Source: Acidobacteriota bacterium
GTDB lineage: Bacteria > Acidobacteriota > Terriglobia > UBA7540
Reading direction: 5' to 3'
DNA length: 39,647 bases
Assembly (NCBI GenBank): GCA_003165315.1
Contig: PLSX01000127.1
Span: 1-39,647 of the forward strand
Shown here piece after piece: positions 18,415 through 38,172 of this stretch (positions are counted from its first letter, which is position 1; each line of letters opens with the position of its first letter). A program made the translations under genes and the position numbers. The notes beneath the pieces were generated by a model. It ran no database searches, was not told the origin of the DNA, and saw only the letters and a program-made list of their open reading frames with translations.

Positions 18415-18547
18415 GCACATCATTCACGGCTGTCTTCCGAGCATGGTCGCTATTTTGTTGGCCGAACGAAACCGGGGCGCCGGGGGTAGCGTCTTAGGTT
18501 AGGTAGAGTTCACCCGCGCTCGTCGTGGGAAGAAGCTCGAATTCTTT

Positions 18548-18563
18548 GCCCGTCTCTTCGGGC
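18548..18563 (+). promoter_or_regulatory. Leader hairpin next to the Hfq-like ribosome binding site
   Basis: GCCCG, a six-base loop (tctctt) and CGGGC form a perfect five-base-pair stem. It ends three bases before the AGGAG ribosome site (18567-18571) of the Hfq-like gene. There is no T-run, so it is not a terminator. It could influence translation of the gene. Confidence 0.35.
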
Positions 18564-18580
18564 TTCAGGAGTAAACCAAC

Positions 18581-18925
18581 ATGAATCGACGATTAATCCG
18601 TCCCACACTTTCCGATGTTCAGGACCAACTCGGCGCCCGGATGCAACGCAAGAAACCCGCTCCTCCAGAGCAAACCAATGCCGAGAATTTTTATTATTTA
18701 AAGCAGATGCAAGCTCGCACGCCCATGATCGTAGTATTGGATCAGGGCGAAACCATCCGCGGCATTATCGAATGGTATGATAAGAGCTGCATCAAGGTAC
18801 ATCGCACCAACGAACCCAATCTTCTGGTCATGAAATCCTGTATCCGGTTCATGTATAAAGATGGCGAGTCCCGGAATGGGGGAAGCCACGAATCGGAAAA
18901 TCATCAATCCGAGGAAGCGGATTGA
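18581..18925 (+). CDS. Hfq-like Sm-fold RNA-binding protein
   Basis: This 114-residue protein has a central Sm-like domain (about residues 40-95). After a helix ([17 protein letters not shown]) come [18 protein letters not shown] and [17 protein letters not shown], which align with the Hfq Sm1 and Sm2 strands. The Lys of the classic YKH Sm2 motif is kept (VMKS), but the Tyr and His are replaced. The N-terminal arm is about 35 residues longer than in E. coli Hfq, and the C-terminal tail is acidic and Ser/Glu-rich. Hfq hexamers anneal small RNAs to mRNAs. AGGAG lies nine bases before the ATG. Acidobacterial Hfq proteins are known to diverge like this, but RNA binding here is inferred. Confidence 0.75.
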
Positions 18926-19088
18926 GACCGCGTCAAGTAGATGAAGCCCGCGCGATCTCCTTAATTGGCCTCCACAACGTCCAGGCGAACTCGGGGAGCG
19001 ACACTTTAAAGGACAAGGGTCCGCGTAAAGCCTCCCTTGGATCTTCCTGCTACTTGACAGTCTGCCGGGCCTCACCTAGCATTGTTTC

Positions 19089-19580
19089 GTGTTTGGATTT
19101 TATAGAGCGGAAACCACCGTGGAGACTTTTCCCCCTTCCCATTTCGATTCCCAAGCCCTTCGGCGACTGGAAGCCCGGTTTCGGCCAATTTGGTGCGTGA
19201 TTTGGCGACCCGCCTCGCTGGTTCTGGCCATTTTCTTGCTCTTGGGTGCTGCCCAGGCCCAGGACGAAAAACCCAAAGTCCCCGGACTTGACAAAATCAT
19301 CGCCGCGAACGAGCACCTGATGTTCACGGGCAAAGTTAAATTGCTGGACGAGGAGCACAACACCCTGAGCGTCAGTTCGGTTGAGGGCTCGGACACGGAA
19401 ATCTTCCCCATCAAGCACAGCACCCATGTCGAAACCGCCGACGGCTTCAGGAAGAGGCTCGACGTTCTCTCTCCCGGCACCCGCGTCATCGTCTATTACG
19501 ACCAGCGCTCCGACCACCGCACCGTAACGCGCATCGAACTGTTTGCCAGTGAATCCAAAAAGAAGGAGCCGCACTCTTAG
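19089..19580 (+). CDS. Small exported protein of unknown function
   Basis: This frame of up to 163 residues contains a signal peptide (PASLVLAIFLLLGAAQAQDE, residues about 40-60). The mature domain is about 100 residues: KVKLLDEEHNTLSVSSVEGS, then TEIFPIKHSTHVETADGFRK and SPGTRVIVYYDQRSDHRTVT. The pattern resembles small beta-barrel (DUF5666-like) periplasmic proteins that hold a 'GTRVIV-YYD' strand, but I cannot assign a family firmly. The GTG at 19089 gives a long pre-signal stretch; a start nearer 19180 (GTG) is also possible. It lies 42 bases upstream of bshA on the same strand. Function is unknown. Confidence 0.6.
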   Translation: MFGFYRAETTVETFPPSHFDSQALRRLEARFRPIWCVIWRPASLVLAIFLLLGAAQAQDEKPKVPGLDKIIAANEHLMFTGKVKLLDEEHNTLSVSSVEGSDTEIFPIKHSTHVETADGFRKRLDVLSPGTRVIVYYDQRSDHRTVTRIELFASESKKKEPHS

Positions 19581-19622
19581 CTGCCTCGCGGCGGCCAGGC
19601 TCCTGATTCCCGTAAGGCCACT

Positions 19623-20768
19623 ATGCGCATCGGCATCACCTGCTATCCCACTTACGGCGGAAGTGGCGTGGTCGCAACCGAGCTCGGCATCGAACTGGCG
19701 GCGCGCGGGCACGACATCCACTTCATCAGCTACGCCATGCCCGTGCGGATCACCGAAGCCTCCGCCCGCATCCACTTTCATGAAGTGGAGATGATGAATT
19801 ACCCGCTCTTCGACCACCCGCCTTATACATTGGCTCTCGCCACAGCGATGGCAAATGTTGCCGTTAATGAATCCCTTGACCTGCTGCACGTTCACTATGC
19901 GATTCCGCATTCGGTTAGTGCCTATCTGGCACGCGCCATGTTGAAACCGCGCCGTTTACCCTTCGTTACCACGCTGCATGGAACGGACATCACGCTAGTG
20001 GGCGCAGACCGTTCCTATCTCCCCATCACCCGCTTTTCCATTGAGGAGAGCGATGGAGTTTCGGCCATCTCCGAATATCTTCGCGATGTAACGCTTCGCG
20101 AGTTTGCCATCCACCGACCAGTGGAAGTCATCCCTAATTTTGTGAACTGCGACGTCTTCCACCCTGCCGAAGGCAAGTCCCGCCGCGAGGAGTTTGCCCC
20201 ACAGGGGGAGAAAATACTGATCCACCTGTCGAATTTCCGCCCTGTAAAGCGCGTGCCCGACGTCGTTGAAATCTTTGCTCTGGTTCGGAAGCAAATCCCT
20301 GCCAAACTTTTGATGATCGGCGACGGCCCCGACAGAACCGTGGCCGAGTGGATGGCACGGGAAAAGGACCTCTCCTCCGATGTGATCTTCCTCGGCAAGC
20401 AAAATCAAGTTCAGGACCTGCTCTGCTGCGGTGACCTCCTCCTGCTGCCCAGCGACATTGAATCGTTCGGTTTGGCGGCACTGGAGGGAATGGCGTCGGG
20501 CGTTCCCGCCATTTGCTCCCGAGTGGGCGGCGTGCCGGAGGTCATTCGCGATGGCGTGGAAGGCTTCCTGGTTGAACCGCGCGACGTTCAAACCATGGCG
20601 GCGCGGGCGCTCGAGATCCTAACCAATCCGGAACGACAAGCGGAGATGTCACGCGCCGCCCGGCAACGCGCCCTTCGCCACTTTTGCAGCAAGAACATCA
20701 TCCCACTCTACGAAGATCTCTACCGGCGAGTTCTTCACAATTCCAGAATGGACATCACGAGCGTGTAG
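19623..20768 (+). CDS. bshA: N-acetyl-alpha-D-glucosaminyl L-malate synthase (bacillithiol synthesis)
   Basis: This is a GT4 glycosyltransferase of 381 residues that joins UDP-GlcNAc to L-malate, the first step of bacillithiol synthesis. The N-terminus (MRIGITCYPTYGGSGVVATE) is typical of BshA, with the glycine loop for malate and UDP-sugar. The C-terminal domain has LIHLSNFRPVKRV and the EX7E motif ESFGLAALE followed by GMASGVPAICSRVGGVPEVI. Length matches characterised BshA. The bshB and bshC steps are not in this window. The ATG at 19623 follows a weak TAAGG. An intracellular low-molecular-weight thiol is implied, consistent with Acidobacteriota or Firmicutes-type physiology. Confidence 0.93.
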   Translation: MRIGITCYPTYGGSGVVATELGIELAARGHDIHFISYAMPVRITEASARIHFHEVEMMNYPLFDHPPYTLALATAMANVAVNESLDLLHVHYAIPHSVSAYLARAMLKPRRLPFVTTLHGTDITLVGADRSYLPITRFSIEESDGVSAISEYLRDVTLREFAIHRPVEVIPNFVNCDVFHPAEGKSRREEFAPQGEKILIHLSNFRPVKRVPDVVEIFALVRKQIPAKLLMIGDGPDRTVAEWMAREKDLSSDVIFLGKQNQVQDLLCCGDLLLLPSDIESFGLAALEGMASGVPAICSRVGGVPEVIRDGVEGFLVEPRDVQTMAARALEILTNPERQAEMSRAARQRALRHFCSKNIIPLYEDLYRRVLHNSRMDITSV

Positions 20769-20797
20769 CCCACCGCTGATCAGACACCATCAATCCG

Positions 20798-21553
20798 TTA
20801 ATTGCCCAGGTCATGTGTGCCGGGCAAAGAAGCTTTCTGCGGAGTCACAACTCCCTCATAGTGCTCGCTCCAAGCCTGATTATTTTGATCCTGATAATCA
20901 GCGTCAATGTTGAATTTGATCAATTGGCCAGAATCTTCGGCAATCCACACTGTTCCCCTACAACCCTTGATGGTGGTCACCACCATGCGGGCCCTTTCCA
21001 AGCCGAGTTTTTGCGATGGCGTGGGAGCAGCAGTGTCAAATGTGAACCTATCCGCGGCGATCATCCCCACCAAATCCGTGCTCGGCGGGGAGGTTACGCT
21101 GGCCCCCAACGCAATTACCAGCGTCGGGCCGCTCATCACTTGGAGCGTCGTCAAGTTCGCCATGTCCCATTTGACCTCATCACCATATTGGGCTTTGGTG
21201 GTCTTGGCGGTTGAACCGCGTGTCTCCGTCAGGTCGATCTCCTCAGGAGAGATATCCGCTTGCAATGTGACCGGGCCCACCAGTGGTGGCTTAGCTTTAT
21301 CCTCACTAAGGTTTTCTTGACCCTTATAGGAAAAGTGGAATGACACAGTGGGCTTCTTCATGGCAACAATCAGCTTGCTTGCCCCATTGCTGAGCCGTTG
21401 CACGTCAGTCTGGTTCACTTCGGAAACAGTAGGAATCCGTTCGTAGCTCACTACCGGCGCGGGATTGTTATTGCAGCCCGGGAGAACGGCTACTAACATC
21501 AGACCCATTAGAAATGAAAAAATCCTCAACGCTGTGTTTACAAGCTTGATCAA
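20798..21553 (-). CDS. Predicted lipoprotein of unknown function
   Basis: This is a protein of about 251 residues with a lipoprotein signal: a hydrophobic core (LRIFSFLMGLMLVAVLPGC) ending in the lipobox VLPGC, then NNNPAPVVSYERIP. It should be anchored by Cys27. The mature part is beta-rich, without a family I recognise: KPTVSFHFSYKGQENL, then PVTLQADISPEEIDLTETRG, and a C-terminal GCRGTVWIAEDSGQLIKFNI typical of LolA/LppX-like or outer-membrane-protein-like sandwiches. I favour the TTG at 21553 because AGGAG lies seven bases upstream; an in-frame ATG at 21571 lacks one. It is convergent with bshA, 29 bases apart, with no visible terminator. Confidence 0.65.
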   Translation of the reverse strand: MIKLVNTALRIFSFLMGLMLVAVLPGCNNNPAPVVSYERIPTVSEVNQTDVQRLSNGASKLIVAMKKPTVSFHFSYKGQENLSEDKAKPPLVGPVTLQADISPEEIDLTETRGSTAKTTKAQYGDEVKWDMANLTTLQVMSGPTLVIALGASVTSPPSTDLVGMIAADRFTFDTAAPTPSQKLGLERARMVVTTIKGCRGTVWIAEDSGQLIKFNIDADYQDQNNQAWSEHYEGVVTPQKASLPGTHDLGN

Positions 21554-21733
21554 GAGATAACTCCTATCCATGAGAACTTGCCCACCGCGGCGGGCATAAA
21601 ATAATGTGGTAATCTTTCGAGGAGTCTGGAAGGCGGCAATTGGCGAAGAAACTCTGGAATGAATTTGTTTGAGGCCGTGACGGATTCCTGCTGCCTCGTA
21701 AGAAAGAATCTCGCCATTGTTTCCTTGCCCGAT

Positions 21734-24147: not shown

Positions 24148-25620
24148 GTGGCGGAGGTTTGTGTGCGACGACCAGAAAAGGCTACGGTAGGAGTGTTCGG
24201 AATCGGCTTGGCGGCATACTGGCCCCAATTCCATGGGCTGAAGGAGCGGCTGGAGGGCTATCAGCGCAAAGTGGAACAGCGCATTGGCCAGTGGGCCACA
24301 GTGGTCAGCGCCGGCTTAGTGGACGATGCCCCTGGCGGGTTTCAGGCCGGTGAGCTCTTTCGCCGCTCCAGTGTTGATCTGGTCTTCTGCTACGTCGGCA
24401 CCTACGCAACTTCCTCAACCGTTCTGCCCGTCATTCAGCACGCCAAGGCTCCGGTGGTCGTCCTGAACCTGCAACCGCTGGCGGCGCTCGATTATGCCCA
24501 CACCGATACCGGCGAGTGGCTGGCCAATTGTTGCGCCTGCTGCGTTCCGGAGATTTCCGGAGCGTTTTCACGCGCGGCCATTCCCTTCAAGCAGGTTACG
24601 GGAATGCTCGATCCGGAACCCGACGTAACGGAACCCTACGAATCGGCCTGGAGGGAGATTGAGGAGTGGTGCGGGGCGGCCAAAGTGGTCCACAATCAAC
24701 GACAGGCACGCATTGGCTACCTTGGACATCCTTTCGCCGGAATGCTGGATATGTACAGCGATTTCACCCAGCATCAGGCCCAGCTTGGCACGCATATTGA
24801 AGTGCTGAACATGTGCCATCTGGAAGAGCGCGTGAACGCCGCCACCGACGCGGAGGTCGCCCGTAAAATGGAGGAGACCACCGCGATCTTCGACATCAGC
24901 GAAGACAGTCCGTCCGACCCCATTGCGAAAAAGCCCGACCCGAAGGAGCTGGATTGGGCATGCCGCGTCTCCGTGGGCCTCGATCATCTGGTAGAAGACT
25001 TCTCTCTCGACGGTTTGGCTTACTACTATCTCGGCGTGGGCGGCAACCTGTATGAGAGGCTGAGCGCGGGCGTCATCCTGGGATGCTCGCTGCTGACTTC
25101 CCGCGGAATCACCTGTTCCGGTGAAGCCGACCTGAAGAATTGCCAGGCAATGAAAATCATGGACCTGCTGGGCGCGGGCGGCAGCTACACGGAGCTTTAC
25201 GCCATGGACTTCCGCGAGCGCTTTATCCTGATGGGCCACGACGGGCCGTTCCATTTGGCGATTGCAGAAGGCCGTCCGATTCTGCGCGGGCTGGGCCTGT
25301 ACCATGGCAAATCCGGATTTGGCGTCAGTGTTGAAGCCAGCGTGCGCAACGGCCCCATCACTATTCTGGGCTTCACGCAGACGAGCGATGGGAAACTGAA
25401 ATTCATTGGCGCCGAGGGCGAGTGCTTCCCCGGTGAACGGCTGAAAATTGGAAACACCAACAGCCGCCTGCGATTCGGCTTGGAACCCGCGCCGTTCATG
25501 AACGCCTATTGCGCAGAAGGACCCACCCACCACTGCGCGCTGGGCGTCGGCCATGTGCTCGGGAAACTCAAAAAAGTTTCATGGCTCACCGGGTTGGAAT
25601 TGAAGGTTATCGGAGAATAG
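24148..25620 (+). CDS. L-arabinose/L-fucose isomerase-family protein
   Basis: This is a 490-residue sugar isomerase of the AraA/FucI superfamily. The N-terminal Rossmann-like domain starts VGVFGIGLAAYWPQFHGLKE. The four catalytic or metal-ligand residues of AraA can be placed: Glu326 (CSGEAD), Glu349 (YTELYAMDF), His364 (LMGHDGPFH) and His462 (THHCALGVGH). Their spacings of 23, 15 and 98 are near those of E. coli AraA (27, 17, 100, recalled). Members isomerise aldoses and ketoses, and the substrate cannot be told from sequence. The start is GTG at 24148, downstream of a good promoter; no strong ribosome site was seen. The clustered secreted esterase and glycosidase suggest it handles a released sugar, which is inference. 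Confidence 0.82.
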   Translation: MAEVCVRRPEKATVGVFGIGLAAYWPQFHGLKERLEGYQRKVEQRIGQWATVVSAGLVDDAPGGFQAGELFRRSSVDLVFCYVGTYATSSTVLPVIQHAKAPVVVLNLQPLAALDYAHTDTGEWLANCCACCVPEISGAFSRAAIPFKQVTGMLDPEPDVTEPYESAWREIEEWCGAAKVVHNQRQARIGYLGHPFAGMLDMYSDFTQHQAQLGTHIEVLNMCHLEERVNAATDAEVARKMEETTAIFDISEDSPSDPIAKKPDPKELDWACRVSVGLDHLVEDFSLDGLAYYYLGVGGNLYERLSAGVILGCSLLTSRGITCSGEADLKNCQAMKIMDLLGAGGSYTELYAMDFRERFILMGHDGPFHLAIAEGRPILRGLGLYHGKSGFGVSVEASVRNGPITILGFTQTSDGKLKFIGAEGECFPGERLKIGNTNSRLRFGLEPAPFMNAYCAEGPTHHCALGVGHVLGKLKKVSWLTGLELKVIGE

Positions 25621-25706
25621 AAAGCGGCTAGTCGTCAGTTCTCCGCCATTGGTTTCCAGTGTCCTGTTTACTTGACTCACATGAGGTGTCGGCAGCGGGA
25701 ACGTAG

Positions 25707-25730
25707 GGGCGGTTCGCGAACCGCCCTTTT
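25707..25730 (+). terminator. Palindrome with T-run, likely terminator or REP half-site
   Basis: GGGCGGTTCG followed by its exact reverse complement CGAACCGCCC (25707-25726) forms a perfect ten-base-pair arm, then TTTT. It lies about 90 bases after the isomerase stop, so it could end that transcript. The sequence 'GGCGGTTCGCGAACCGCC' is also typical of dispersed intergenic repeats. Confidence 0.5.
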
Positions 25731-25775
25731 GGCAATACGCTCAATCCCCGCTCTAATAATCGCTGGTTTAAAATT

Positions 25776-25823
25776 GTAGCGGCGAGTTTACGTCGCCACG
25801 TGGCGGCATAAAGCCGTCTCTAC
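25776..25823 (+). repeat. REP-like compound inverted repeat
   Basis: GTAG at the left end pairs with CTAC at the right end. Inside are two small hairpins, GGCGA/TCGCC and GGCGGC/GCCGTC (with one wobble). I recall this pattern as a dispersed intergenic repeat in several soil bacteria; copy number in this genome is unknown. Confidence 0.45.
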
Positions 25824-25973
25824 GTCCCTCTGTTCCACCCCTCAGTGTTCGCTATTCCTATTCACTCGAAGGAAAGTTAAGATAACCCCGCTGCAAATGT
25901 TGAAGCCACGGGAAAAATTGGGGTGGCATTCCGGGCAGCATGAATTCATCAGAGAACCTGGGGGCAAGATCCA

Positions 25974-28799
25974 GTGCGCAAGAACCATCTGCTTTATCTA
26001 TTCCTCATAATTTTTGCGGGTTTGGCTTCTGCCCGATTTGTTTCAACGGGAAGGGCGCAGGGGCCTCAAACCGCCACCGAAGTCAACAATTCCCAGGCTC
26101 ACGCAGCGGGGACGCCTACAATCGCTCTGCGAGGCACGACGCTCTTAACCAAACCGGTTAAGGATGACCTGCGTGAGGAGCAGCGCCAGCAGATTATCAA
26201 CTATTTCCTGTCACAGATTGCCGCCGCTCCGGCCAAGCGCGATGCCCTGTGGCGCGCGAACTTTTCTTCCCCGGGTTCGTACAAAGCCTCGATTGAGCCG
26301 CATCGGGCCCATCTTCGCAAAATGCTGGGCCTCACCGATTCCCACCTCAGAACGCCGCAAATTAACCTTCTGAGCGAGAACACGAATCTGCGAGTTGAGG
26401 AGTTGACCCTGTCGCTTGACACTGGATTCAGGGCGCGGTCGCTCTTCTTCCTTCCCAAAACCGCAGCCTTGGCAGGAGGAGTTATCGCCATTCCCCCCAC
26501 CACAGAGAGCCGCGAAGAGTTCGCTGGCGTGATGGATGGGGCAACGCCAGCCGCGTGGCTGAAACTGCTCCTCGCACGCAATCTCGCCGTCGCGGTTCCG
26601 ATAACGATTGAGAGAAGCGATGATCACCCCATCTGCAATCAGGCGGGTGGCAAGGATCGCCGCCGCGTTTTGTGGCGCGCGGGTTTCATTGTGGGCCGAA
26701 CCATGGTGGGGCTGGAGGTGCAGCAAGCACTGGCCCTGCGCCAATATCTCGCCTCGCGGCAGGAAATCGAAGCCAAGCCCATCGCAGTAATGGGAATGGA
26801 ACAAGGTGGCATGACCGCCCTTTATGCGGCCGCGCTGGATGAACATTTCGCGGCCGGCGCGAGCCTTGACTACTTTCAGCAAAGGGAGAATTGCTGGCAG
26901 GAGCCCGTTGACCGGGTCCTCAATGGCCAGCTCAATGAATTCGGCGACGCGGAAGTAGCGGCGCTTATTGCACCGCGCCCGCTGCTGATTGCCACATCTC
27001 CCGAAGGCGTAATTTCAAAGGCCAGGGTCAATGCTGAATGCGCACGAGCCCGGCGTTTCTACCAAGGCTTAAAATGTGAAAACAGACTGGTGGAACTCAC
27101 TTCGCAGCAGGGCACACTTGAAGCCATGGCACTGAGATTGGCAGATGAGTTGGGCACGAAGGAAGATTCAAACCCGCCGAACATTACTCTGCGAGTTTCC
27201 TACGGGCAGATTGAACAAGCCCGCGACCAGCAATTTGAAGGGTGGTTTCAATACTTGCAGAGTTTGATTTCCTCGAGCAGCCAAACACGCAAGCGTCATT
27301 GGCAGCTTGACTCCACACCCGCCACAGCCCGGGCAAGGAAGGTGGAACAACTTCGAGCGGAGTTGGCGCAACTGGTGGGAGTGATTCCCGCAGGCAAGAT
27401 TCCCATGAATGCCCGCACCAGATTGACCGCGGAAACGGATAAGTTTCGGGCTTATGACGTTTTCCTGGACGTCCTTCCAGGGGTGGAAGTCTACGGGCAA
27501 CTTCTGGTGCCGCGCTCGGCGGGCGAACTGGGGCATCAACGCCTTCCCGTAGTGGTCTGCCAGCACGGATTTGATGGCGCGCCCAAATACGTGAGCGGCG
27601 TCGGCGAGGACCTGGAATCCAATGATCACTTTTACCACCGTTTTGGCCAGCGCCTGGCGGAACGAGGGTATGTTGTTTTTGCGCCCTACCTGACGGTTCC
27701 CGAAGTAAAGCATACAGACGTCATAGTTCACCGGGCGGATCTGGTAAATCCACTGGTGAGAATGGCGGCACCGCTCGGATTGATGCGCACGAGTATTGAA
27801 CTGGCCAAGCTCCACCGGGTGGTTGATTTCCTGCAATCATTGTCGTTCGTCGACGCCGATCATATGGGATACTATGGCCTTTCATACGGTGGATATTCCG
27901 CCATCTGGATGCCGCCACTCGAACCTCGGCTGAAAGTTACCATCATTTCCGCGCATTTTAACGACTGGCAAACTATGCTGACCGATTCGACGCGGCAGGG
28001 TGACTCCTATTGGAGCCTCCCCGACGAGGACTTTTACAACTGGAATGTGCTCAACCGCTTTGTGCATACCGAGCTGATCTCTGCAATGTGGCCACGGCCA
28101 GTCTGCATTGAATATGGTTCGCAAGACCAGGTCACCACGGCCGCGTGGCATCAACGCGCGTGGCAGGAGGTCAATACCTTCGCCGAGGCTTGGGGAATGC
28201 AGGGCAAGATTGTCGACGAAGACTTTGATGGCCCACACTCCATTCACGGCATCGCCACGTTCTTCTTTCTCGACCGCTGGCTCCGTCCGGATCGACCCGC
28301 CGGCCGCGATTTTGGCTGCAAACATGACGATTACTGTTATCAAAATCTTGCACCCGGAAATCATGGTTATGACTTAAACACAGTCTCAGGCGCGCCCTAT
28401 GTCACAAAACCTGTTGATTCAAGCCCTGAGACAATTATCCGCGGACAATTCTATGTGACCGCAGGAACGCCTACGTTCACTGGCATGGCGTTTAAGCTTG
28501 CCCGCACCGGGAATCCCGGAAACCTGGTTGTTCGTTTCGGATCGCAGGAAGGTGCGGCGGATTTGGGCGAGGCCGAGGTCCCTTCCCAGGCCGTTGACCC
28601 GCAAAACCCGCTGTGGCACGAAGCGACGCTCAAAAGTCCCATTCGGTTGGATCCGCAAAAGCTTTACTCTTTTGAGCTCCTGGCGAAGTCCGGCCACGCC
28701 CCTGTCGACGATTATGTGGTGTTTGGACCTCGGCCGCTGGGTGGCGAGGATTATCCGAACGCCTTTGGCCTGTCATTTCGCACGCTCACGCGTCAATAG
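25974..28799 (+). CDS. Secreted protein with two alpha/beta-hydrolase domains, the first degenerate
   Basis: This is a 941-residue exported protein (signal peptide HLLYLFLIIFAGLASARF). Domain 1 (about residues 60-400) has an acetyl-xylan-esterase/dienelactone-hydrolase shape, but its nucleophile elbow reads GMEQGG with Glu276 in place of Ser. The usual acid and His sites also look lost (IATSPEGVISK, TSQQGTLEAM). Domain 2 (about 400-790) keeps a full triad: Ser637 (YYGLSYGGY), Asp718 (GSQDQVTT) and His755 (FDGPHSIHG). A C-terminal beta-sandwich (about 815-941) may bind carbohydrate. It probably de-esterifies a polysaccharide outside the cytoplasm, inferred from domain 2 and the neighbouring glycosidase. 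The start is GTG 25974 with GGGGGCAAG upstream. The next gene begins 31 bases later. Confidence 0.8.
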   Translation: MRKNHLLYLFLIIFAGLASARFVSTGRAQGPQTATEVNNSQAHAAGTPTIALRGTTLLTKPVKDDLREEQRQQIINYFLSQIAAAPAKRDALWRANFSSPGSYKASIEPHRAHLRKMLGLTDSHLRTPQINLLSENTNLRVEELTLSLDTGFRARSLFFLPKTAALAGGVIAIPPTTESREEFAGVMDGATPAAWLKLLLARNLAVAVPITIERSDDHPICNQAGGKDRRRVLWRAGFIVGRTMVGLEVQQALALRQYLASRQEIEAKPIAVMGMEQGGMTALYAAALDEHFAAGASLDYFQQRENCWQEPVDRVLNGQLNEFGDAEVAALIAPRPLLIATSPEGVISKARVNAECARARRFYQGLKCENRLVELTSQQGTLEAMALRLADELGTKEDSNPPNITLRVSYGQIEQARDQQFEGWFQYLQSLISSSSQTRKRHWQLDSTPATARARKVEQLRAELAQLVGVIPAGKIPMNARTRLTAETDKFRAYDVFLDVLPGVEVYGQLLVPRSAGELGHQRLPVVVCQHGFDGAPKYVSGVGEDLESNDHFYHRFGQRLAERGYVVFAPYLTVPEVKHTDVIVHRADLVNPLVRMAAPLGLMRTSIELAKLHRVVDFLQSLSFVDADHMGYYGLSYGGYSAIWMPPLEPRLKVTIISAHFNDWQTMLTDSTRQGDSYWSLPDEDFYNWNVLNRFVHTELISAMWPRPVCIEYGSQDQVTTAAWHQRAWQEVNTFAEAWGMQGKIVDEDFDGPHSIHGIATFFFLDRWLRPDRPAGRDFGCKHDDYCYQNLAPGNHGYDLNTVSGAPYVTKPVDSSPETIIRGQFYVTAGTPTFTGMAFKLARTGNPGNLVVRFGSQEGAADLGEAEVPSQAVDPQNPLWHEATLKSPIRLDPQKLYSFELLAKSGHAPVDDYVVFGPRPLGGEDYPNAFGLSFRTLTRQ

Positions 28800-28830
28800 G
28801 ACGAGTATCTGCTCACCATGGAGTCGACGG

Positions 28831-31143
28831 ATGAAACGTAGAACATTTTTGCAAGGTACGGCAGGCGGATTGGGCGCCTGGGTGGGATGGCGGGGAGAGG
28901 TGGCGAATGCGCGCCCGGGGTGTTCGGCCGTAGTTCCCCCCTTGCCCGCAGATTTGGCCAGTGATGGTTACCACCCCCCGGAATGGTTGCACTACGCCCA
29001 GGCTGTTTATTTTGACGGATACTCGCCGCCTCTTTATCCCCACATGAAGGACTTTGACGCCCGGCGTCTGGTGGAAGTTGTTACCGGATTGGGCGGAAAC
29101 CTCTTGCGGTTCCAGCCCATCGGTTATCGCGCCTACTACCCAAGCCAGGCTTTTCCGCTGCATGACGAATTGAGCAGACGCGATTTAATTGAGGAGGTCT
29201 CGAGGGAGTGCCGCCGCGCCGGCGTGCATTTATACTGCTACACCAATTATGGTTTCGGTCTGATGCTTGAACCTGAGTTTCTGCAGGCCAATCCTCGGTT
29301 CAATGACTGGCTGTTGCGCGACCCCGACGGAAACCCGTATGGGGTTTATTCCCACTACGGCTGGACGCCCGCCCCGCGAATGATCTGCTTTACGGGAGAT
29401 CTGTACCGCGCCGCCCTGCGGCAGGTTGCCAGTGAATACTGTGCCCACGACATCGATGGCATGTACTTTGACAGCCCGAGTGAGTTCACTTACACGGGAA
29501 TCTGTTTCTGTGACAACTGTCGGAGTAATTTCAAGAAGTTTACGGGCATGGATATCAAGCGGCTGCGAGCGTTCGGCAGCAGGCCCGGACTCAACTCCGA
29601 TCCCGCCTCGTTCCCCCCGAGCGCCGACATGGAGGCACTACAGGCCTGGTACGCGTGGGCACAGAGTCTGGTGCAGAAGGATCTGCTGGACTTTCGCAAG
29701 ATCATCCACGGCAGCGGCAAGTTCATGATGTGCCATAACGGCGCGACATGGCATGGCAATTCCCTGCCCCTCCAGTACAGGATTTCCGACGGCTTCATGG
29801 TGGAGGCCAGCCGGGAAGTTCACGATCGACTGATGACAGGAATGAAAGGCGCGTCCATGGCGAGGCCGTATCGAAAAGTGGCGCAGATGTACCTGGGAAG
29901 CTACGCCATTGGATGGTACAACGAACCACCGCATGAACGCCCCTGGGTGGTTCACAACACTAATCTTGAAGAGAGCGACGAAATCCGCATGGAGGGCTTC
30001 GCCAACCTGGCCTGCGGGAATACGCCCATCTACGCCACTGCCAATCGCGCCTATTTTAAAGTTGGTGGGGGCAGCACTGAATCAACAAAGGAAGTTTTTG
30101 AGTTCATGCGGCGGGTGGAGGCCCTGCACAAAGGCAGCGTTCCGGTTCCATACGTAAGCATTGTGCCCACATGGGAAGCGCTGCAACTTTGGCGCACCCG
30201 GCAGACAAGCTGGAACTGGCCGACGATGAGCCAGGCCATGGGACTCGCGATGCTCGATGAGCGCATCAGTGTGGACGTCAACGCCGGCACCGAAATCAGT
30301 GAAGCGTGGCTGCGGGAGCAAAAGGTCATTGCACTGTGCGGAGCATCTGGAGTCTCTGAACACATTGCCGCGCAGTTGACGGATTGGGTGGCGTCTGGAG
30401 GCGGGTTGCTCGCCACCTATGATACGGGCTTGTATAACGACCACGGTGAATTGCGAAAAGATGGAGGCGCACTGAGCAAGGTGTTGGGCGTCGAGATGCG
30501 AGGCGCGCCGCCGGGAAGCCAGCCCGAGTGCTTTTATCGCATGAAGCAGAGCCATCCGGCACTCGGTGATTACACTTCCGGTGCAATCGTGGAGGGCGAT
30601 GGCCAAATCGTACCCGTTGCGGCAGTTGGAGATGCGAAGATCCTGGCGGAAAGCTGGAATTTGGGAACGGGCGACGTGCGCGGCCCGGCAATCATCGTCA
30701 ACCAATTTGGAAAGGGCCGGACGATTTACGTGAGCGGCAGTTTGGAGGCCAATTACATCTCCGACCGCGTAAGATCCACTTCAAAATTGCTGGGCTCAAT
30801 AGTGCATTACCTTGGAGCAGCCGCGCCCCAACCATTTCGCTTGAAGGCTCCTCGAGGTGTTTATGGCGTGCTCAGGCGCTCACCCAATGGGGATTTGTTG
30901 CTCTGGGTGTTGGCTAATGTGGGCTTCAAGGACGCGGCTTCCGGGCGAATGCGGCAGGAATATGTTCCCGTTCATGATATTGAAGTGGCGATTCGAATCC
31001 CAGAGGGCAGGCAAGCCGGAACCATGAAGCTGTTGCGGACGGGCGTGGACGCTGCATCTTTCCGCGTCGAGAATGGATACGCGCTGGCGACGGTTCCAAA
31101 ATTGCATATCGCCGAGGTCGTGCACCTGGCGCTCAGGACGTAA
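28831..31143 (+). CDS. Tat-exported GHL6/GH42-like glycoside hydrolase
   Basis: This is a 770-residue protein with a twin-arginine signal (MKRRTFLQGTAGGLGAWVGW). The catalytic TIM-barrel-like part carries VHLYCYTNYGFGLMLEPEF, HDIDGMYFDSPSEFTYTG (about residues 206-223) and a Cys pair pattern CFCDNC (about 226-231). These match the 'hypothetical glycosyl hydrolase 6' group near GH42 and GH29. A beta-galactosidase trimerisation-like domain (about 480-660, IALCGASGVSEHIAAQLTDW) and a beta C-terminal part follow. Enzymatic activity has not been shown for most of this group. The start is the ATG at 28831, preceded by GGAG. It is probably co-transcribed with the preceding esterase-like gene. Its end overlaps the convergent VOC gene by 11 bases. 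Confidence 0.78.
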   Translation: MKRRTFLQGTAGGLGAWVGWRGEVANARPGCSAVVPPLPADLASDGYHPPEWLHYAQAVYFDGYSPPLYPHMKDFDARRLVEVVTGLGGNLLRFQPIGYRAYYPSQAFPLHDELSRRDLIEEVSRECRRAGVHLYCYTNYGFGLMLEPEFLQANPRFNDWLLRDPDGNPYGVYSHYGWTPAPRMICFTGDLYRAALRQVASEYCAHDIDGMYFDSPSEFTYTGICFCDNCRSNFKKFTGMDIKRLRAFGSRPGLNSDPASFPPSADMEALQAWYAWAQSLVQKDLLDFRKIIHGSGKFMMCHNGATWHGNSLPLQYRISDGFMVEASREVHDRLMTGMKGASMARPYRKVAQMYLGSYAIGWYNEPPHERPWVVHNTNLEESDEIRMEGFANLACGNTPIYATANRAYFKVGGGSTESTKEVFEFMRRVEALHKGSVPVPYVSIVPTWEALQLWRTRQTSWNWPTMSQAMGLAMLDERISVDVNAGTEISEAWLREQKVIALCGASGVSEHIAAQLTDWVASGGGLLATYDTGLYNDHGELRKDGGALSKVLGVEMRGAPPGSQPECFYRMKQSHPALGDYTSGAIVEGDGQIVPVAAVGDAKILAESWNLGTGDVRGPAIIVNQFGKGRTIYVSGSLEANYISDRVRSTSKLLGSIVHYLGAAAPQPFRLKAPRGVYGVLRRSPNGDLLLWVLANVGFKDAASGRMRQEYVPVHDIEVAIRIPEGRQAGTMKLLRTGVDAASFRVENGYALATVPKLHIAEVVHLALRT

Positions 31144-31756
31144 GCTCAACATCGCCCTTGGGGCTGGCAATGCAAGCAAGTAACAATGGCTTTTCCCCTG
31201 GCTCCACGGCCACCTCAACCGCCAGCATTTTGCAGGCACTTGCCAAATCCGCAACGTCCGGCGATTGCAAGCGAAAGCTTTTGAGCGTGCATCCTGCGGG
31301 CGCGTCCGCAGAGGGATGAACCGAATCACGGCCCCATTCGATGAAGAATGGCAGCATCCCGCCGCGGTTGTCCCACAAGTGAAATAATTTCCAACTTAAC
31401 AGCTTGCCGTCGGGACGAGTGCGCGCGCCGTCATGCGGCCCGTCAATGGGGATATCTGCCGCACTGGCTTTTTGCGCAAGCGCGGTGAGGTCCGAGGTGT
31501 GCACCGCCCAGGCAATCAGCCGCGGTTCTGCCAGGGCAAGAACCTGCTTAAACCAGGTTGGTACAGTTTGTTGGGGATCGGGAGCAATGATCTCCAAATA
31601 GCTGTCCGGCCCAAGCGAAAGAAGAGCGTTGCGCGTTCCGCGGCCGGGATGAACACCGCCGAAGACCGCGCGGACACCCATCCACTGTTCCACCCAATCA
31701 ACGCCACGATCAAGGTCATTAATTCCCAGGATGATATGGTCAAGCCCTGTCTGCAT
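31133..31756 (-). CDS. Glyoxalase-like (VOC superfamily) protein
   Basis: This is a 207-residue protein of the Glyoxalase_3-type VOC group. It starts with GLDHIILGINDLDRGVDWVE, typical of the betaalphabetabetabeta unit, and continues with NALLSLGPDSYLEIIAPDPQ and a C-terminal repeat (LKSFRLQSPDVADLASACK). His6 and Glu53 are candidate metal ligands. The substrate is unknown. GGGAGCG lies just before the ATG. It is 16 bases downstream of the UroD-like gene on the same strand, so the two form an operon. Its last 11 bases overlap the 3' end of the convergent glycosidase gene. Confidence 0.78.
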   Translation of the reverse strand: MQTGLDHIILGINDLDRGVDWVEQWMGVRAVFGGVHPGRGTRNALLSLGPDSYLEIIAPDPQQTVPTWFKQVLALAEPRLIAWAVHTSDLTALAQKASAADIPIDGPHDGARTRPDGKLLSWKLFHLWDNRGGMLPFFIEWGRDSVHPSADAPAGCTLKSFRLQSPDVADLASACKMLAVEVAVEPGEKPLLLACIASPKGDVELTS

Positions 31757-31772
31757 CGCTCCCTGCTCCCAA

Positions 31773-32849
31773 TTAAAGAAAGGTCTTCAACCGCTCCAGA
31801 AAATACCGGTAGTTCTCGTATGGCGTGTCGGGTGTGGCGGAGTGGTCAAGCATGGGAAGATACCCGCCCTCAGCGATGAGGGGCTTCACGCGCTCAAGTT
31901 CCTTCTCAATCGCATCGCGCCCCACCGCCAAGGACCGCTTATCGACCCCGCCCCACATGCGCAGGTCGCGGCCGTACTTCTTTCGCAGTGCCACCACATC
32001 CATATCCGCTTGGACCTCGAAGGGGTAAAGGATATCGATCCCCGAATCCAACCAAACCGGGATCAGGGGATCAATGTTTCCGTCGCTATCCAGGCCAAAC
32101 ATGTGCACACCGTGGGCGCGTCCGAAATCCACTACTTTGCGGTAGCGCGGCAGCATGAAATGGCGGGACAGCTTCGGCGAAAGTAGGGGCGCGGTGTGGT
32201 AGGCCATATCCTCCCAGAATCCAAAGACGTCGACATCGGTGACTTCCAGAATTTGCGACAGCATTTGGATGAGGAAATCCGCGTCGGCCTCCAGCATCTC
32301 CTCGACGAAGGCGGGGTCATCGTAGAAGAGCGTGCAGAGACTCTCCACGCCTACCAGATTGCGTTGCGGCCCAAAGAAGCCGCCCCAGCGGTCGGCAATG
32401 ATGACGAAGGGGAAATCGCGGTTGCGGAGGCCCCCCAGGCGCTGGCGCCAATCCGGCCCAATGCGCTGCGCCAGGTCCGGCCGCATCCTCTCACGCCAAT
32501 ACTTGCGAAAGTCTTCGCGTGTTTCCACAGGATAGCGGATGAATTGCGGCATGGAACTCAACGGGTTGTTCTTAAATTCCCGCATCACGATGCCTTGAGG
32601 ATCTACAAAGGTCACGTGCTCGCTGTCTTCCTCCAGGATATCCCTCGCAAACGGAGGCTGAGGCCAGAACCAGGAGTATTCCACCAGCCACTTGTCACAG
32701 CCAAATTCGGTCTTGCCTTGAACGTACCCTCCCTCCCTTGCCCATCTTTCCGCGGTTTCGGGCCAGGTGGGCCACATGAATTCATAAAAAGGGGCACGGT
32801 CGACGGCTTTATATTGCATGGTGCGGGAAAACCGTTCGCGAGCATTCAT
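31773..32849 (-). CDS. Uroporphyrinogen-decarboxylase-like protein (corrinoid methyltransferase-type)
   Basis: This is a 358-residue TIM-barrel protein of the UroD/MtaA/MtbA superfamily. It opens with MNARERFSRTMQYKAVDRAP and closes with YLPMLDHSATPDTPYENYRY, both typical of the non-haem branch. The position where zinc-dependent members have H-x-C-G reads VHMFGLDSDGN, so the Cys ligand is missing. It may act as a demethylase with a different active site or not be a methyltransferase. AAGGAAG lies about four bases before the ATG. It sits upstream of the VOC gene, and downstream of the regulator gene with a 156-base gap. Whether it works with the sugar genes is unclear. Confidence 0.8.
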   Translation of the reverse strand: MNARERFSRTMQYKAVDRAPFYEFMWPTWPETAERWAREGGYVQGKTEFGCDKWLVEYSWFWPQPPFARDILEEDSEHVTFVDPQGIVMREFKNNPLSSMPQFIRYPVETREDFRKYWRERMRPDLAQRIGPDWRQRLGGLRNRDFPFVIIADRWGGFFGPQRNLVGVESLCTLFYDDPAFVEEMLEADADFLIQMLSQILEVTDVDVFGFWEDMAYHTAPLLSPKLSRHFMLPRYRKVVDFGRAHGVHMFGLDSDGNIDPLIPVWLDSGIDILYPFEVQADMDVVALRKKYGRDLRMWGGVDKRSLAVGRDAIEKELERVKPLIAEGGYLPMLDHSATPDTPYENYRYFLERLKTFL

Positions 32850-33005: not shown

Positions 33006-33692
33006 TTACGAGGAAAACTTATATCCCTGCCCATGAACGGTAATGATGTATTTGGGCTGCTTGGGATCATCTTCAAGCTTTTGCCGCAACCAGGCCACGT
33101 GGACATCAACCGTTCGCGTGGACGGCGCGGAGGAGTAGCCCCAGACGTCCTTCAGAAGTTCATCACGAGTCAAGGTCTTCCCGCGATGCTCAATCAGATA
33201 ACGAAGTAATTGGAACTCCTTGGTCGAAAGTGAAGCGGGCGCGCCATTACGAAACACCTCGGAATGCCGCATATCGATACGGAGCGGTCCAAAATCATAA
33301 AAGTCCGGTCCGTCGCTTCCGGTCCTGCTTCCCCGCCGCAGCAAGGCCTCAACGCGGGCCAGGAGTTCAGCCATTTCGAATGGCTTGGTCAGATAGTCGT
33401 CAGCCCCTATTTTGAGTCCCTTTACTTTGTCGGTCATTTGGGTGCGCGCTGTAAGCATCAGGATGGGCGTGGTGAAACCTCGTTCTCGAAGTTCCTGGCA
33501 AATCTCGAAGCCGCCTTTGCCGGGCAGCATGACATCCAGAATGATGAGCCCGAAATGATCGCGCGTGGCCCGCTCCACGGCCTCACTTCCGTCGTATAGC
33601 GATTCCACCGAGTAGCCCTCGCTGCGAAGGCGATCGGTCAGCGTCAGGACCAACCCGGGTTCATCTTCAACTAATAAAATATTGGAATTCAT
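33006..33692 (-). CDS. OmpR/PhoB-type response regulator
   Basis: This 228-residue regulator has a receiver domain with the phosphoacceptor Asp53 (LIILDVMLPGKGG), the acidic pair in LLVEDEPG, and KPFEMAELLARV. A winged-helix DNA-binding domain follows (about residues 130-225: LSTKEFQLLRYLIEHRGKTL, YSSAPSTRTVDVHVAWLRQK). GAGGGAAC directly precedes the ATG at 33692. It is the last gene of the metallo-hydrolase - kinase - regulator set, 64 bases after the kinase, and should be the kinase's partner. Target genes are unknown. Confidence 0.93.
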   Translation of the reverse strand: MNSNILLVEDEPGLVLTLTDRLRSEGYSVESLYDGSEAVERATRDHFGLIILDVMLPGKGGFEICQELRERGFTTPILMLTARTQMTDKVKGLKIGADDYLTKPFEMAELLARVEALLRRGSRTGSDGPDFYDFGPLRIDMRHSEVFRNGAPASLSTKEFQLLRYLIEHRGKTLTRDELLKDVWGYSSAPSTRTVDVHVAWLRQKLEDDPKQPKYIITVHGQGYKFSS

Positions 33693-33756
33693 GTTCCCTC
33701 TTTCTCGCCCTGGGTGGAATTGCAAACCTTGCTGCTTTCCGTGTCAGCAGCAAGAT

Positions 33757-35661
33757 TCATTTGACCGCGGGGAAATGCAGTGTAAATTTACTCCCTTCAC
33801 CCAGGCGACTGGAGACCGTCAATCTTCCGCCCATGACCTCCGCCGCTTCTTTCACCAGGCTCAATCCCAATCCCGTTCCGTGCGTCTGCGAATCCCGTGC
33901 GGCATTTCCACGATAGAATGGCTCGAAGATGTGGGAGATCTCTTCCGGCGCAATTCCCGGGCCTCGATCCTCGACAGTGATCAGAACTTCTGCCGCCTCC
34001 CGGCCCGTCCCTGGCAGGGCGCGGATTGCCATCCAGCGCCCTTCCGAAGCATATTTCAGGGCATTGGTCATCAGATTCTGCAAGCAGCGGTTTAGCGCCT
34101 TCGGGTCCGCCATAACTGGAGGCAGGTCTGGAGCCACTTCTTTCTCTACCGCGAATCCGTTGGCTTCGGTCAGGTGGGCCAGATCCGCAACAGCTGTATC
34201 GATCGTTTCCGCCACGGCGACTGGGCGGGGTTGATACCGTGGCGCCTCGTTACGTGTGGAGGCGAAAAGCAACACCTGCCCAATCATGGCGGCGAGCCGC
34301 TGGGCCTCATTGCGAATGAGCGCACCGTATTGTTTCACTTGTTCGTTTGACCCCACCACGCCATCAGCAAGATTTTCGGCTGCCGAGGATATGACACTTA
34401 CTGGGGTGCGCAGTTCGTGGGAAACACCGGCGACGAAATCCATTTGCATCTTCGCCAGCCGCTGGATTCGCTGCGTCCAAACCAGTACCAGTGCCATGCT
34501 GGCAGCGAGCACCAGCAGGACACCGAAGCCCAGCAGCAGGTCCCGGCGCCAATATAGTGATGCCGCCTCGGCCATGGAACCCCCTTGATGGCGAACCACC
34601 AGCCGCCAACCGGCAGCGGAAGCGTCGGCAACTATCGGTGCGCCGAAAAATCCCCGTCCGCGCCCGGAGGTTTCCCGTCCGGCTCCTCCTGAAAAAGGAA
34701 AGGGGGTCGGCACCCTCTCCCGCCTATCTGTGCTGCCGGGCACACGGGGGTTGCCCTCTCTAAATTCAGCTCCCCGCCCTCGTCGAGCGTTGAAAAGGTG
34801 CAGGGTTTCGTCCGGCGAACTCACAAGGTCCGGCGAAGGTTGTGATTCTGAGGAGTAGATGAATTGGGCGGGATCCGCGCCATCAATGACGGCCACATTG
34901 TAGAGAGGTCCCGAAGGTCCGGCAAAGTATCGCCTGGTAAGTTCGGGAAAGAGCCGTGTGATCAGGACGTCGCGGTCCAGCTCAACGATCATGAAGCCGG
35001 CGGGTGAGCAATCCGGCGGGCACCCATCGCGATTCCTCCGGTTGCGCCAGCCCGGTTGGGGAATGGGCCGGACCATCGCAAGCGACTCACCCTGAATTCG
35101 CCACCGTAGCCCCATTGGCGCAAAATCCCCGCCGCGAGGAGCCAGCGCGCCGGCAAGTCCGGATGTATCGCAGAGGAGCCCCAAACGCGCCGGGCAAGCC
35201 GCGGCTGTAAAGGTCCCATCCTGCTGGGGATTGAACTGAAGGAAGGAATAGCTATCTCCCTTTCCCTTTTCCCAAAGGAAGTAGTTGGCCACCAGCTCGC
35301 GGTGGTCGGAGGAGCGCGCCCAATCGCCGCAATCCTGGGCGTAGAGATCCTCAATCTCAGCGGCCTCGTCGGGCGGGCGGAAGCCGAAGCTGGTGCAAAT
35401 ACCTGCCAGCTCGCGACGGAAATCCTCGCGGAATCCATTCATGCCGGCTTCCAGGGCAGCCTGCTTCCGTTGCAATTCCGAGGCCCGAATCTGGTTGCTC
35501 CAACGGAATTGCAGCGCCCCCAACACCACCAACAACGCGCTGAGGCCGGCAATAATTCCATAGGCACCCAGGGACTGCTTGAATTTGGTGGTCATAGATT
35601 TGGTCTTCGGTGGTATAGATGCCTCCTCTGCTGCCAGGGTCGCCCCGGGTTCAGGTTTCAC
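33757..35661 (-). CDS. Membrane sensor histidine kinase
   Basis: This is a 634-residue kinase. After a soluble N-terminal stretch comes one membrane helix (about residues 31-50, YGIIAGLSALLVVLGALQF). A large extracytoplasmic region (about 51-370) has no recognised domain, and a second helix follows (about 372-394). The HisKA domain has His415 (FVAGVSHELRTPVS), and the ATPase domain has NALKYA, EDRGPGIAPEE and GTGLGLSLVKEAAEV. A low-complexity Arg/Gly/Pro-rich segment (RRGRGAEFREG, then GRETSGRGRGFF) sits in the sensor region. The GTG start overlaps the stop of the upstream metallo-hydrolase gene (GTGA, 35658-35661), indicating coupling; an ATG at 35595 is an alternative. It signals to the OmpR-type regulator. 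Confidence 0.9.
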   Translation of the reverse strand: MKPEPGATLAAEEASIPPKTKSMTTKFKQSLGAYGIIAGLSALLVVLGALQFRWSNQIRASELQRKQAALEAGMNGFREDFRRELAGICTSFGFRPPDEAAEIEDLYAQDCGDWARSSDHRELVANYFLWEKGKGDSYSFLQFNPQQDGTFTAAACPARLGLLCDTSGLAGALAPRGGDFAPMGLRWRIQGESLAMVRPIPQPGWRNRRNRDGCPPDCSPAGFMIVELDRDVLITRLFPELTRRYFAGPSGPLYNVAVIDGADPAQFIYSSESQPSPDLVSSPDETLHLFNARRGRGAEFREGNPRVPGSTDRRERVPTPFPFSGGAGRETSGRGRGFFGAPIVADASAAGWRLVVRHQGGSMAEAASLYWRRDLLLGFGVLLVLAASMALVLVWTQRIQRLAKMQMDFVAGVSHELRTPVSVISSAAENLADGVVGSNEQVKQYGALIRNEAQRLAAMIGQVLLFASTRNEAPRYQPRPVAVAETIDTAVADLAHLTEANGFAVEKEVAPDLPPVMADPKALNRCLQNLMTNALKYASEGRWMAIRALPGTGREAAEVLITVEDRGPGIAPEEISHIFEPFYRGNAARDSQTHGTGLGLSLVKEAAEVMGGRLTVSSRLGEGSKFTLHFPAVK

Positions 35662-37579: not shown

Positions 37580-38092
37580 TTACTTGGTGTGGAAAACTGC
37601 CTGTTTGAATGTGCCGCGCGAGTTTTCGATCTTCGTTTGCAGCATGTTAATGGCATGAATCAGTTGCTCGGGCCGGGGCGGGCACCCTGGCACGTAAACG
37701 TCCACGGGGATGTATTGATTGACGCCCTGCACGATGGCGTAATTATTGAAGACGCCGCCGGAGGTTGCGCACGCGCCCATGGAGATCACCCACTTGGGTT
37801 CGGGCATCTGCGCGTAGAGGCGTTGAATCACCGGAGCCATCTTTTGAGAAACGCGACCGGCGATAATCATCAGGTCCGCCTGGCGCGGCGATCCGCGGAA
37901 TACCTCGGCGCCAAAGCGCGCCAGGTCGAAACGGGCAGCTCCCGTCGACATCATCTCAATGGCACAACACGCCAGGCCGAAGCTCATCGGCCAGATTGAG
38001 GATTTACGCGCCCAGTTCACCGCTTTGTCAAGCTGGGTGAAGAGGAGACCGTCAAAACCGGATTGATCGTTCGGTGTATTAAATGCGCCCAT
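37580..38092 (-). CDS. nuoB: NADH-quinone oxidoreductase subunit B
   Basis: This 170-residue protein carries the N2 iron-sulfur cluster of respiratory complex I. Its four Cys ligands are the adjacent pair in [15 protein letters not shown], then GACATSGG and [31 protein letters not shown] is also typical. I chose the ATG at 38092 because homologues start there; a GTG at 38143 would add a non-conserved tail. No other complex I subunit gene is next to it, which is unusual because nuoB normally lies between nuoA and nuoC. Confidence 0.92.
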
Positions 38093-38172
38093 CGCAAAAC
38101 CATTATGCCATGCGAATCTATTCTCATCAACCCCAACTATCACAAGAAAAATAAATCAATTTTCCGGCACCC

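Follow-up and report, generated by a model that had tools for sequence, protein, structure and literature searches.

An AraA-fold isomerase-like protein associated with L-rhamnose operons and its chance neighbours in an Acidobacteriota contig

L-Rhamnose is a major sugar of the plant cell wall and of bacterial glycans, and its pathway is regarded as solved. The AraA/FucI enzymes of solved structure take 2,3-threo aldoses as substrates, rhamnose being a 2,3-erythro sugar. The L-rhamnose isomerases RhaA and RhaI are listed as alternative isomerases in a 2013 survey (Rodionova et al. 2013, PMC3870299), whose text, when searched, contained no AraA, FucI or COG2407. The protein described here, ISO, belongs to a fold family other than that of RhaA and RhaI, although it occurs in the same operons and presumably in the same pathway. 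It has in common with the E. coli L-arabinose isomerase AraA (2ajt/4f2d) the fold, over 458-461 residues at about 2.5 A (Z about 36), and the four metal ligands, but differs from it in sequence (about 16% identity), in the replacement of Q125 and H128 by Cys and in a gene context of rhamnose rather than arabinose operons. With the L-fucose isomerase FucI (1fui, 6k1f; PF07881) it has the superfamily fold in common (Z about 30), whereas it is about 100 amino acids shorter, shows no Fucose_iso_N1 match and coexists with a canonical FucI encoded elsewhere in the same genome. The profile of the sulfoquinovose isomerase SftI (NCBIfam NF048012) gives weak matches with ISO (19.1 bits) and with its Halanaerobium relative (36.5 bits), both far under the 700-bit cut-off.

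The window, that is, the whole stretch of 39,647 nucleotides analysed, comes from the contig of an Acidobacteriota bacterium. Five genes in it were originally predicted to form one cluster for the degradation of a modified sugar. The five open reading frames are real and were recovered at the same positions, and they are arranged with their neighbours as follows.

24148-25620, plus strand: ISO, AraA/FucI-superfamily isomerase-like protein of 490 aa with a GTG start, block 1 (profile, fold and ligands)
25621-25973, no strand: gap of 353 bp between ISO and EST, holding a dispersed palindrome (genome pattern search)
25974-28799, plus strand: EST, secreted double alpha/beta-hydrolase of 941 aa with a Sec-like signal, block 2 (Pfam and profile)
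28834-31143, plus strand: GHL6, Tat-exported GHL6/GH42M-type glycosidase of 769 aa, block 2 (Pfam, profile and fold)
31133-31756, minus strand: VOC, Glyoxalase_3-type protein of 207 aa, block 3 (family scan)
31773-32849, minus strand: UROD, UroD/MtaA-CmuA-like protein of 358 aa, block 3 (family scan)
33006-33725, minus strand: RR, response regulator (Response_reg and Trans_reg_C) bordering the variable interval (family scan)
33757-35661, minus strand: HK, histidine kinase paired with RR (family scan)

EST and GHL6 are separated by 34 bp, and VOC and UROD by 16 bp, with UROD upstream on the same strand. As had been noticed from the sequence, VOC and UROD converge on the other three genes; the ends of VOC and GHL6 overlap by 11 bp. 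The palindrome GGGGCGGTTCGCGAACCGCCC, at about 25705-25728 inside the ISO-EST gap, gives 51 forward/reverse pattern matches in the genome, corresponding to about 27 sites, with no match for the reversed control. No operator shared by the upstream regions of ISO and EST was found (two overlapping shared 9-mers, 1.2 expected), and scans for promoters and terminators gave no excess over chance. The interval was said to have no regulator, which is correct for the interval itself, but the RR/HK pair (33006-35661) lies on its border, a position that it retains in the same-genus genomes.

The five genes are chance neighbours distributed in three separate blocks and do not constitute a single sugar-degradation cluster. 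Their joint occurrence was correctly perceived as adjacency in this window, but it is not conserved in genomes of the same genus, where the interval from ISO to RR/HK is variable: ISO is kept and the other four genes come and go. The genes run ISO-VOC-(three-gene insert)-UROD-RR-HK in G003, ISO-RR-HK in G007 and ISO-GHL6-RR-HK in G008, and in G002 a deleted ISO adjoins RR. RR stays beside ISO in G002, G007 and G008 and near it in G003. When co-occurrence was scored over 120 relatives, with kinship taken into account by genus count only, EST-GHL6 was the only significant pair of ten (p = 6e-5), the other nine giving uncorrected p values of at least 0.037, so that the proposed association failed for every pair but this one. 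From the same-genus orders and presence/absence, the view that evolution has kept the five genes together was rejected. Outside the genus, a tie between ISO and either VOC or UROD was likewise rejected, G107 having relatives of all three on three different contigs.

A single pathway in which the five products would free a modified sugar, remove its esters, isomerise it and possibly demethylate it is thus, in our judgement, highly improbable. In its favour are the adjacency of the genes in this window, that of ISO and GHL6 also in G008, the presence of ISO, VOC and UROD on one contig in G003, and UroD-like genes found near GHL6 in two loci (L132 and L144) and within one rhamnose operon (L229). 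Against it, nine of the ten pairs show no co-occurrence beyond chance after correction, the genes of the interval are gained and lost independently of each other, and the blocks are split by a dispersed repeat and by opposite strands. Moreover, the genome of the window and its near relatives contain up to 16 UroD-like matches each, so one UroD-like neighbour says little. UROD, a URO-D member by family scan, scored 25.3 bits against the curated MtaA/CmuA subfamily, whose cut-off is 235.4, and no sequence match to it was found among solved structures. VOC belongs to Glyoxalase_3, and the relatives of VOC in other families adjoin, by sequence reading, unrelated genes such as those for ThrRS or a DNA glycosylase. 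What survives of the original interpretation is a superfamily protein and a secreted esterase-glycosidase pair, both of them indicating deoxy-L-sugar metabolism, without the five-gene pathway.

We propose instead three unrelated transcription blocks placed beside a two-component system, in which ISO would be a cytoplasmic companion of the L-rhamnose pathway, EST and GHL6 would be an exported esterase-glycosidase pair, and VOC-UROD would be unrelated to both. To this explanation as a whole we assign a probability of roughly 0.55.

That ISO is an AraA/FucI-superfamily protein, as predicted, is borne out by its AraA fold and its four metal ligands. By sequence it is far outside every curated AraA, FucI or SftI family. 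In Pfam, AraA_central and Fucose_iso_C match weakly, both under cut-off (19.1 against 29.3 bits for the latter), Fucose_iso_N1 (PF07881) gives no match at E 0.01, and neither RhaA (PF06134) nor RhaI (TIGR02635) is found in Pfam or NCBIfam at the same threshold. The curated AraA family (NCBIfam NF002795) yields 37.5 bits, the cut-off being 622, and the profile match with AraA structures reaches E 6e-18. The AlphaFold model (pLDDT 91.8) has its best matches in AraA, with FucI next, and Foldseek aligns it with AraA over the whole length (E 1e-29). Residues E326, E349, H364 and H462, aligned with the metal ligands E306, E333, H350 and H450 of AraA, are invariant in 17 relatives; in relatives down to 40% identity, the active-site region likewise keeps many of its glycines and histidines unchanged. 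The two cysteines at the AraA substrate positions come from the profile alignment, and one of them, C131, is invariant. Viral contigs contain no close relative of ISO, and no description of the family was found in the open-access literature.

The family is present in Acidobacteriota, Chloroflexota, Bacillota, Planctomycetota and other phyla, and in many of them its members lie in L-rhamnose operons with RhaM, RhaB, RhaD/E, RhaT and rhamnosidases, as in RhaB-ABC-RhaI-RhaDE-ISO-RhaM (L175) or RhaB-RhaA-aldolase-RhaM-ISO (L225). A tally of 127 immediate operon neighbours on 80 named contigs, with no preselection of families, is led by rhaM (18), followed by sugar ABC permeases (9), RhaD_aldol-ADH or RhaDE (7), RhaT (5), xylose-isomerase-like TIM barrels (4), RhaA (3) and the GH78 6-hairpin domain (3). 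RhaI occurs in 22 of 22 ISO-bearing relatives versus 24 of 99 others (p 1e-11) or, counted by genus, in 15 of 15 versus 12 of 48 (p 1e-7). Among 49 genomes reached through named ISO loci, RhaI is present in 29, RhaA in 16 more and a RhaI fragment in one; neither was found in L230, L232 and L236, metagenome-assembled genomes that are possibly incomplete, where ISO might therefore act as rhamnose isomerase. The ISO of the window adjoins no rhamnose gene, the RhaI-RhaB loci of its genome being on other contigs (C248 and C83). A paralogue with 48% identity (G006:C472) adjoins a canonical FucI, and the family may thus have links other than to rhamnose.

A non-orthologous replacement of L-rhamnose isomerase by ISO was rejected, RhaI or RhaA being alongside in nearly all ISO genomes. 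In view of the retention of these enzymes and of the rhamnose-operon context, ISO is best regarded as a probable isomerase accompanying the rhamnose pathway. A second L-rhamnose isomerase, catalysing the RhaI/RhaA reaction perhaps under different conditions of pH, metal or concentration, is unlikely: ISO directly adjoins RhaM, RhaB and RhaDE, the three genomes without detectable RhaI and RhaA are as this proposal would have it, and in L230 RhaM, RhaB and ISO share a propanediol-microcompartment-like locus whose fragment shows no RhaI or RhaA, but ISO is additional to RhaI in all 22 relatives, the L229 operon already has both RhaI and RhaA, and the 2,3-erythro configuration of rhamnose disagrees with the 2,3-threo substrates generally known for this fold. 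Still less probable is that ISO acts as a conventional isomerase of L-arabinose or L-fucose. The fold scores, the conserved ligands and an AraB-like kinase 3 kb upstream of one relative (L036) are consistent with it; the score far below the AraA cut-off, the Cys replacements with an invariant C131, the lack of a Fucose_iso_N1 match, the canonical FucI encoded in the same genome, and a neighbour tally not led by arabinose or fucose families argue against it. A former enzyme turned sensor or scaffold of rhamnose metabolism might account for the redundancy with RhaI/RhaA, yet it is scarcely credible given four metal ligands and so many invariant active-site residues at 40% identity.

In the companion reading, ISO would be a metal-dependent aldose-ketose isomerase of AraA fold whose substrate is probably some aldose different from L-rhamnose. 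The chemistry of the superfamily would suit a 2,3-threo 6-deoxy-L-hexose, for example L-fucose or L-quinovose; RhaM would equilibrate the anomers, and the product would be a ketose usable by the rhamnulokinase/aldolase route. Against this reading, the link to RhaI and RhaA could lie in shared RhaB and RhaD instead of a shared substrate. A conserved isomerase-like companion occurring with either known isomerase points to a reaction that the pathway still lacks or to a second sugar entering it. We put forward tentatively, at somewhat less than even odds, that this undescribed and widespread AraA-fold family provides an extra step of L-rhamnose catabolism, a dedicated isomerase-mutarotase pair (ISO-RhaM) allowing a further sugar, probably of the 6-deoxy-L type, to enter the pathway. 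Superfamily membership alone is a poor ground for naming proteins of this type arabinose or fucose isomerases.

EST is, as predicted, a very large secreted esterase-like protein (941 aa, Sec-like signal) made of alpha/beta-hydrolase domains, assigned by family scan to the Peptidase_S9/AXE1/DLH type. Its N-terminal domain has its match in acetyl xylan esterases (AXE1-type), its C-terminal domain in DPP4-like enzymes and CE15 glucuronoyl esterases. EST differs from all of these in being a fusion of two domains and in lacking the nucleophile Ser in the N-terminal domain, where Glu or Gln replaces it in all 17 relatives. The C-terminal domain carries the motif GLSYGGY with S637. The CE15 match (E about 1e-6) covers about 110 residues only and ranks behind other alpha/beta-hydrolases.

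For GHL6 the Tat-exported GHL6/GH42-like assignment is upheld, with a corrected start, the reading frame opening at 28498 and the Tat start (MKRRTFLQG) being at 28834. The protein passes PF14871 (36.9 versus 35 bits) and Glyco_hydro_42M. In fold it is most like the GH151 alpha-L-fucosidase ALfuk2 (6tvk; Z 24.9 over 619 residues, the best match), with which its catalytic domain also gives a profile match (E 9e-17), although identity is 16% and GH42 enzymes come close in score (Z 23). The conserved D213 aligns with an Asp at chain position 183 of 6tvk, which would be the published nucleophile D154 if the tag is 29 residues long. E324, a candidate acid/base Glu, is invariant and is located outside the stretch aligned with 6tvk. 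The pair would thus comprise an exported esterase and a GH151-like retaining glycosidase, likely of the alpha-L-fucosidase type, acting on an esterified glycan; both specificities are putative. In G005, the EST-GHL6 pair adjoins a GH29 fucosidase, an enolase-type sugar-acid dehydratase and an amidohydrolase.

The window takes in all of contig C220, part of a draft genome of 6.19 Mb. The five genes that the original prediction had joined into one possible sugar-degradation cluster, suited to release, de-esterification, isomerisation and possibly demethylation of a modified sugar, were all found at its positions, bordered by a two-component system:

ISO, 24148-25620 (+), 490 aa, sub-threshold matches only, to AraA_central and Fucose_iso_C
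EST, 25974-28799 (+), 941 aa, double alpha/beta-hydrolase with a Sec-type signal
GHL6, 28834-31143 (+), start at 28834 with a Tat signal, passes the GHL6 and Glyco_hydro_42M models
VOC, 31133-31756 (-), Glyoxalase_3 protein
UROD, 31773-32849 (-), UroD-superfamily protein, 25 bits against the MtaA/CmuA curated model (cut-off 235)
RR, 33006-33725 (-), response regulator
HK, 33757-35661 (-), histidine kinase

The five genes are arranged in three blocks (ISO; EST-GHL6; VOC-UROD) and not in a single operon, because of their spacing, the palindrome GGGGCGGTTCGCGAACCGCCC (25705-25728) in the ISO-EST gap and the change of strand. The gaps measure 353 bp between ISO and EST, 34 bp between EST and GHL6 and 16 bp between VOC and UROD, the latter two genes lying on the opposite strand, with an 11-bp overlap between VOC and the end of GHL6. 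Copies of the palindrome are dispersed through the genome at about 27 sites, with 51 matches over the two strands and 0 for the reversed control; it is likely a REP-type element. Elsewhere in the window, a lipoprotein-like protein of 257 aa (20798-21571) has no Pfam match, and a NuoB-like subunit gene (37580-38143), recognised by sequence reading, stands apparently alone among unrelated genes.

Gene order around ISO in the window and in genomes of the same genus (arrowheads follow the strand)
Window: ISO>EST>GHL6><VOC<UROD<RR<HK
G003: ISO><VOC, three opposite-strand genes, UROD<RR<HK
G007: ISO>, then RR and HK
G008: ISO>GHL6>, then RR and HK
G002: ISO remnant with its central region deleted (contig C6, L043 7971-8383), adjoining RR

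The insert in G003 reads as a GntR-type regulator, an ABC ATPase and a permease. Within the genus the fixed points are thus ISO and the two-component system, and the remaining genes are optional. When presence and absence of close orthologues were compared over 120 relatives, related at genus to class level, EST and GHL6 formed the sole significant pair of ten (p 6e-5), ISO and UROD gave p 0.037 uncorrected and the other eight non-significant pairs were higher; all such co-occurrence p-values serve only as guides, because the genomes are incomplete and related to one another. The co-occurrence of the five families elsewhere, put forward as a check, thus reduces to one pair; gene order varies within the genus, and the supposed cluster is an ordinary stretch of adjacent, mostly unrelated genes.

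Close homologues of EST and GHL6 form pairs in G016 (two contigs) and in G005, where a gap separates them on the same strand; those that are divergent neighbours in G002, G005, G007 and G008 are more distant homologues. The pair locus of G005 also carries a GH29 alpha-L-fucosidase, an enolase-family dehydratase, an amidohydrolase and a hydroxyisobutyrate-dehydrogenase-like protein, and the EST locus of G070 a DHDPS-type aldolase. In fold and catalytic domain GHL6 best matches the GH151 alpha-L-fucosidase 6tvk, although GH42 enzymes score almost as high. Its D213 aligns with the Asp at chain position 183 of 6tvk, which would be the nucleophile D154 of that enzyme (review PMC10154630) provided that the crystallised chain has a 29-residue tag. 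The nucleophile position in the N-terminal domain of EST is occupied by Glu or Gln in all 17 relatives; in the C-terminal domain S637 does not vary.

A profile of 17 ISO relatives matched solved L-arabinose isomerases over most of its length (E 6e-18), and the predicted structure of ISO (pLDDT 91.8) was closer to AraA (Z about 36) than to FucI (Z about 30). The four metal ligands of E. coli AraA (E306, E333, H350 and H450) align with E326, E349, H364 and H462, none of which varies among the aligned relatives. ISO thus has the whole fold and the four ligands in common with AraA, whereas the substrate-site residues Q125 and H128 are replaced by cysteines. Scores against the curated AraA and SftI models were only 37.5 bits (cut-off 622) and 19 bits (cut-off 700). 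Together these data point, by all visible signs, to a putative AraA-fold metal-dependent isomerase outside every named family tested here.

A scan of species genomes gave more than 500 ISO relatives, the best 80 loci coming from Acidobacteriota, Chloroflexota, Bacillota, Planctomycetota, Verrucomicrobiota and others. Among 127 immediate same-strand neighbours, scanned without preselecting families, L-rhamnose mutarotase (RhaM) came first (18); next were sugar ABC permeases (9), RhaD/aldolase-dehydrogenase (7), the transporter RhaT (5), xylose-isomerase-like TIM barrels (4), RhaA (3) and GH78 alpha-L-rhamnosidase domains (3). Acidobacteriota relatives have among their neighbours GH106 and GH78 rhamnosidases, RhaM, RhaT, the rhamnulokinase RhaB and a RhaD-type aldolase. 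ISO lies inside whole rhamnose operons at L175, L187, L189, L191, L193, L218, L225 and L229; most ISO-bearing rhamnose operons hold the L-rhamnose isomerase RhaI, and L225 and L229 hold RhaA.

Our initial reading, ISO as a substitute for RhaI or RhaA, was discarded, since one or the other is present alongside in nearly all genomes with ISO. RhaI occurs in 22 of 22 genomes with full-length ISO against 24 of the 99 others (p 1e-11; 121 genomes of the relative set) and, by genus, in 15/15 with ISO against 12/48 without (p 1e-7); RhaA occurs in one of the 121. The 49 genomes reached through named loci gave RhaI (E below 1e-100) in 29, RhaA in 16 of the rest and a RhaI fragment in one, neither enzyme being found in those of L230, L232 and L236, of which L230 is the best candidate for a locus where ISO may itself be the rhamnose isomerase. 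Therefore, ISO accompanies whichever rhamnose isomerase a genome has. The window's genome itself carries two RhaI-RhaB loci, on contigs C248 and C83, and its canonical FucI lies on C187. At L040 (1653-5250, G006:C472) an ISO paralogue of 48% identity directly follows canonical FucI, which is a single case, though consistent with ISO as a companion of deoxyhexose pathways in general.

The main rival explanation is that ISO is an isozyme of rhamnose isomerase. We infer instead a substrate other than rhamnose, because to our knowledge AraA-fold enzymes of known substrate act on 2,3-threo aldoses (L-arabinose, D-galactose, L-fucose, D-arabinose, sulfoquinovose), and rhamnose is 2,3-erythro. As such a companion, ISO would act on another aldose (L-fucose or L-quinovose, perhaps) and yield a ketose for RhaB and RhaD to process, with RhaM serving as its mutarotase. 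What the data show is the fold, the ligands, the genomic context and the co-occurrence; catalysis and the substrate are inferred.

The open-access literature searched yielded no description of the ISO family. PMC3870299, a comparative study of rhamnose catabolism from 2013, gives RhaA and RhaI as the alternative isomerases and mentions neither AraA nor FucI; this absence holds within the papers searched and is no proof of novelty.

UroD-like genes lie within the rhamnose operon of L229 (3735-4814 and 7343-8452), together with RhaI, RhaB, ISO and RhaA, and adjoin a RhaB-like kinase at L147 (4429-9570), possibly for use of methylated deoxy-sugars. The UroD-superfamily matches, 14 to 16 per genome among the matches listed for G000 (the window's genome), G003, G006 and G016, are an unusual expansion, which may reflect corrinoid methyl-transfer metabolism. 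The L230 locus (2353-21470) combines RhaM, RhaB and ISO with microcompartment shell-like genes and a glycyl-radical-type enzyme.
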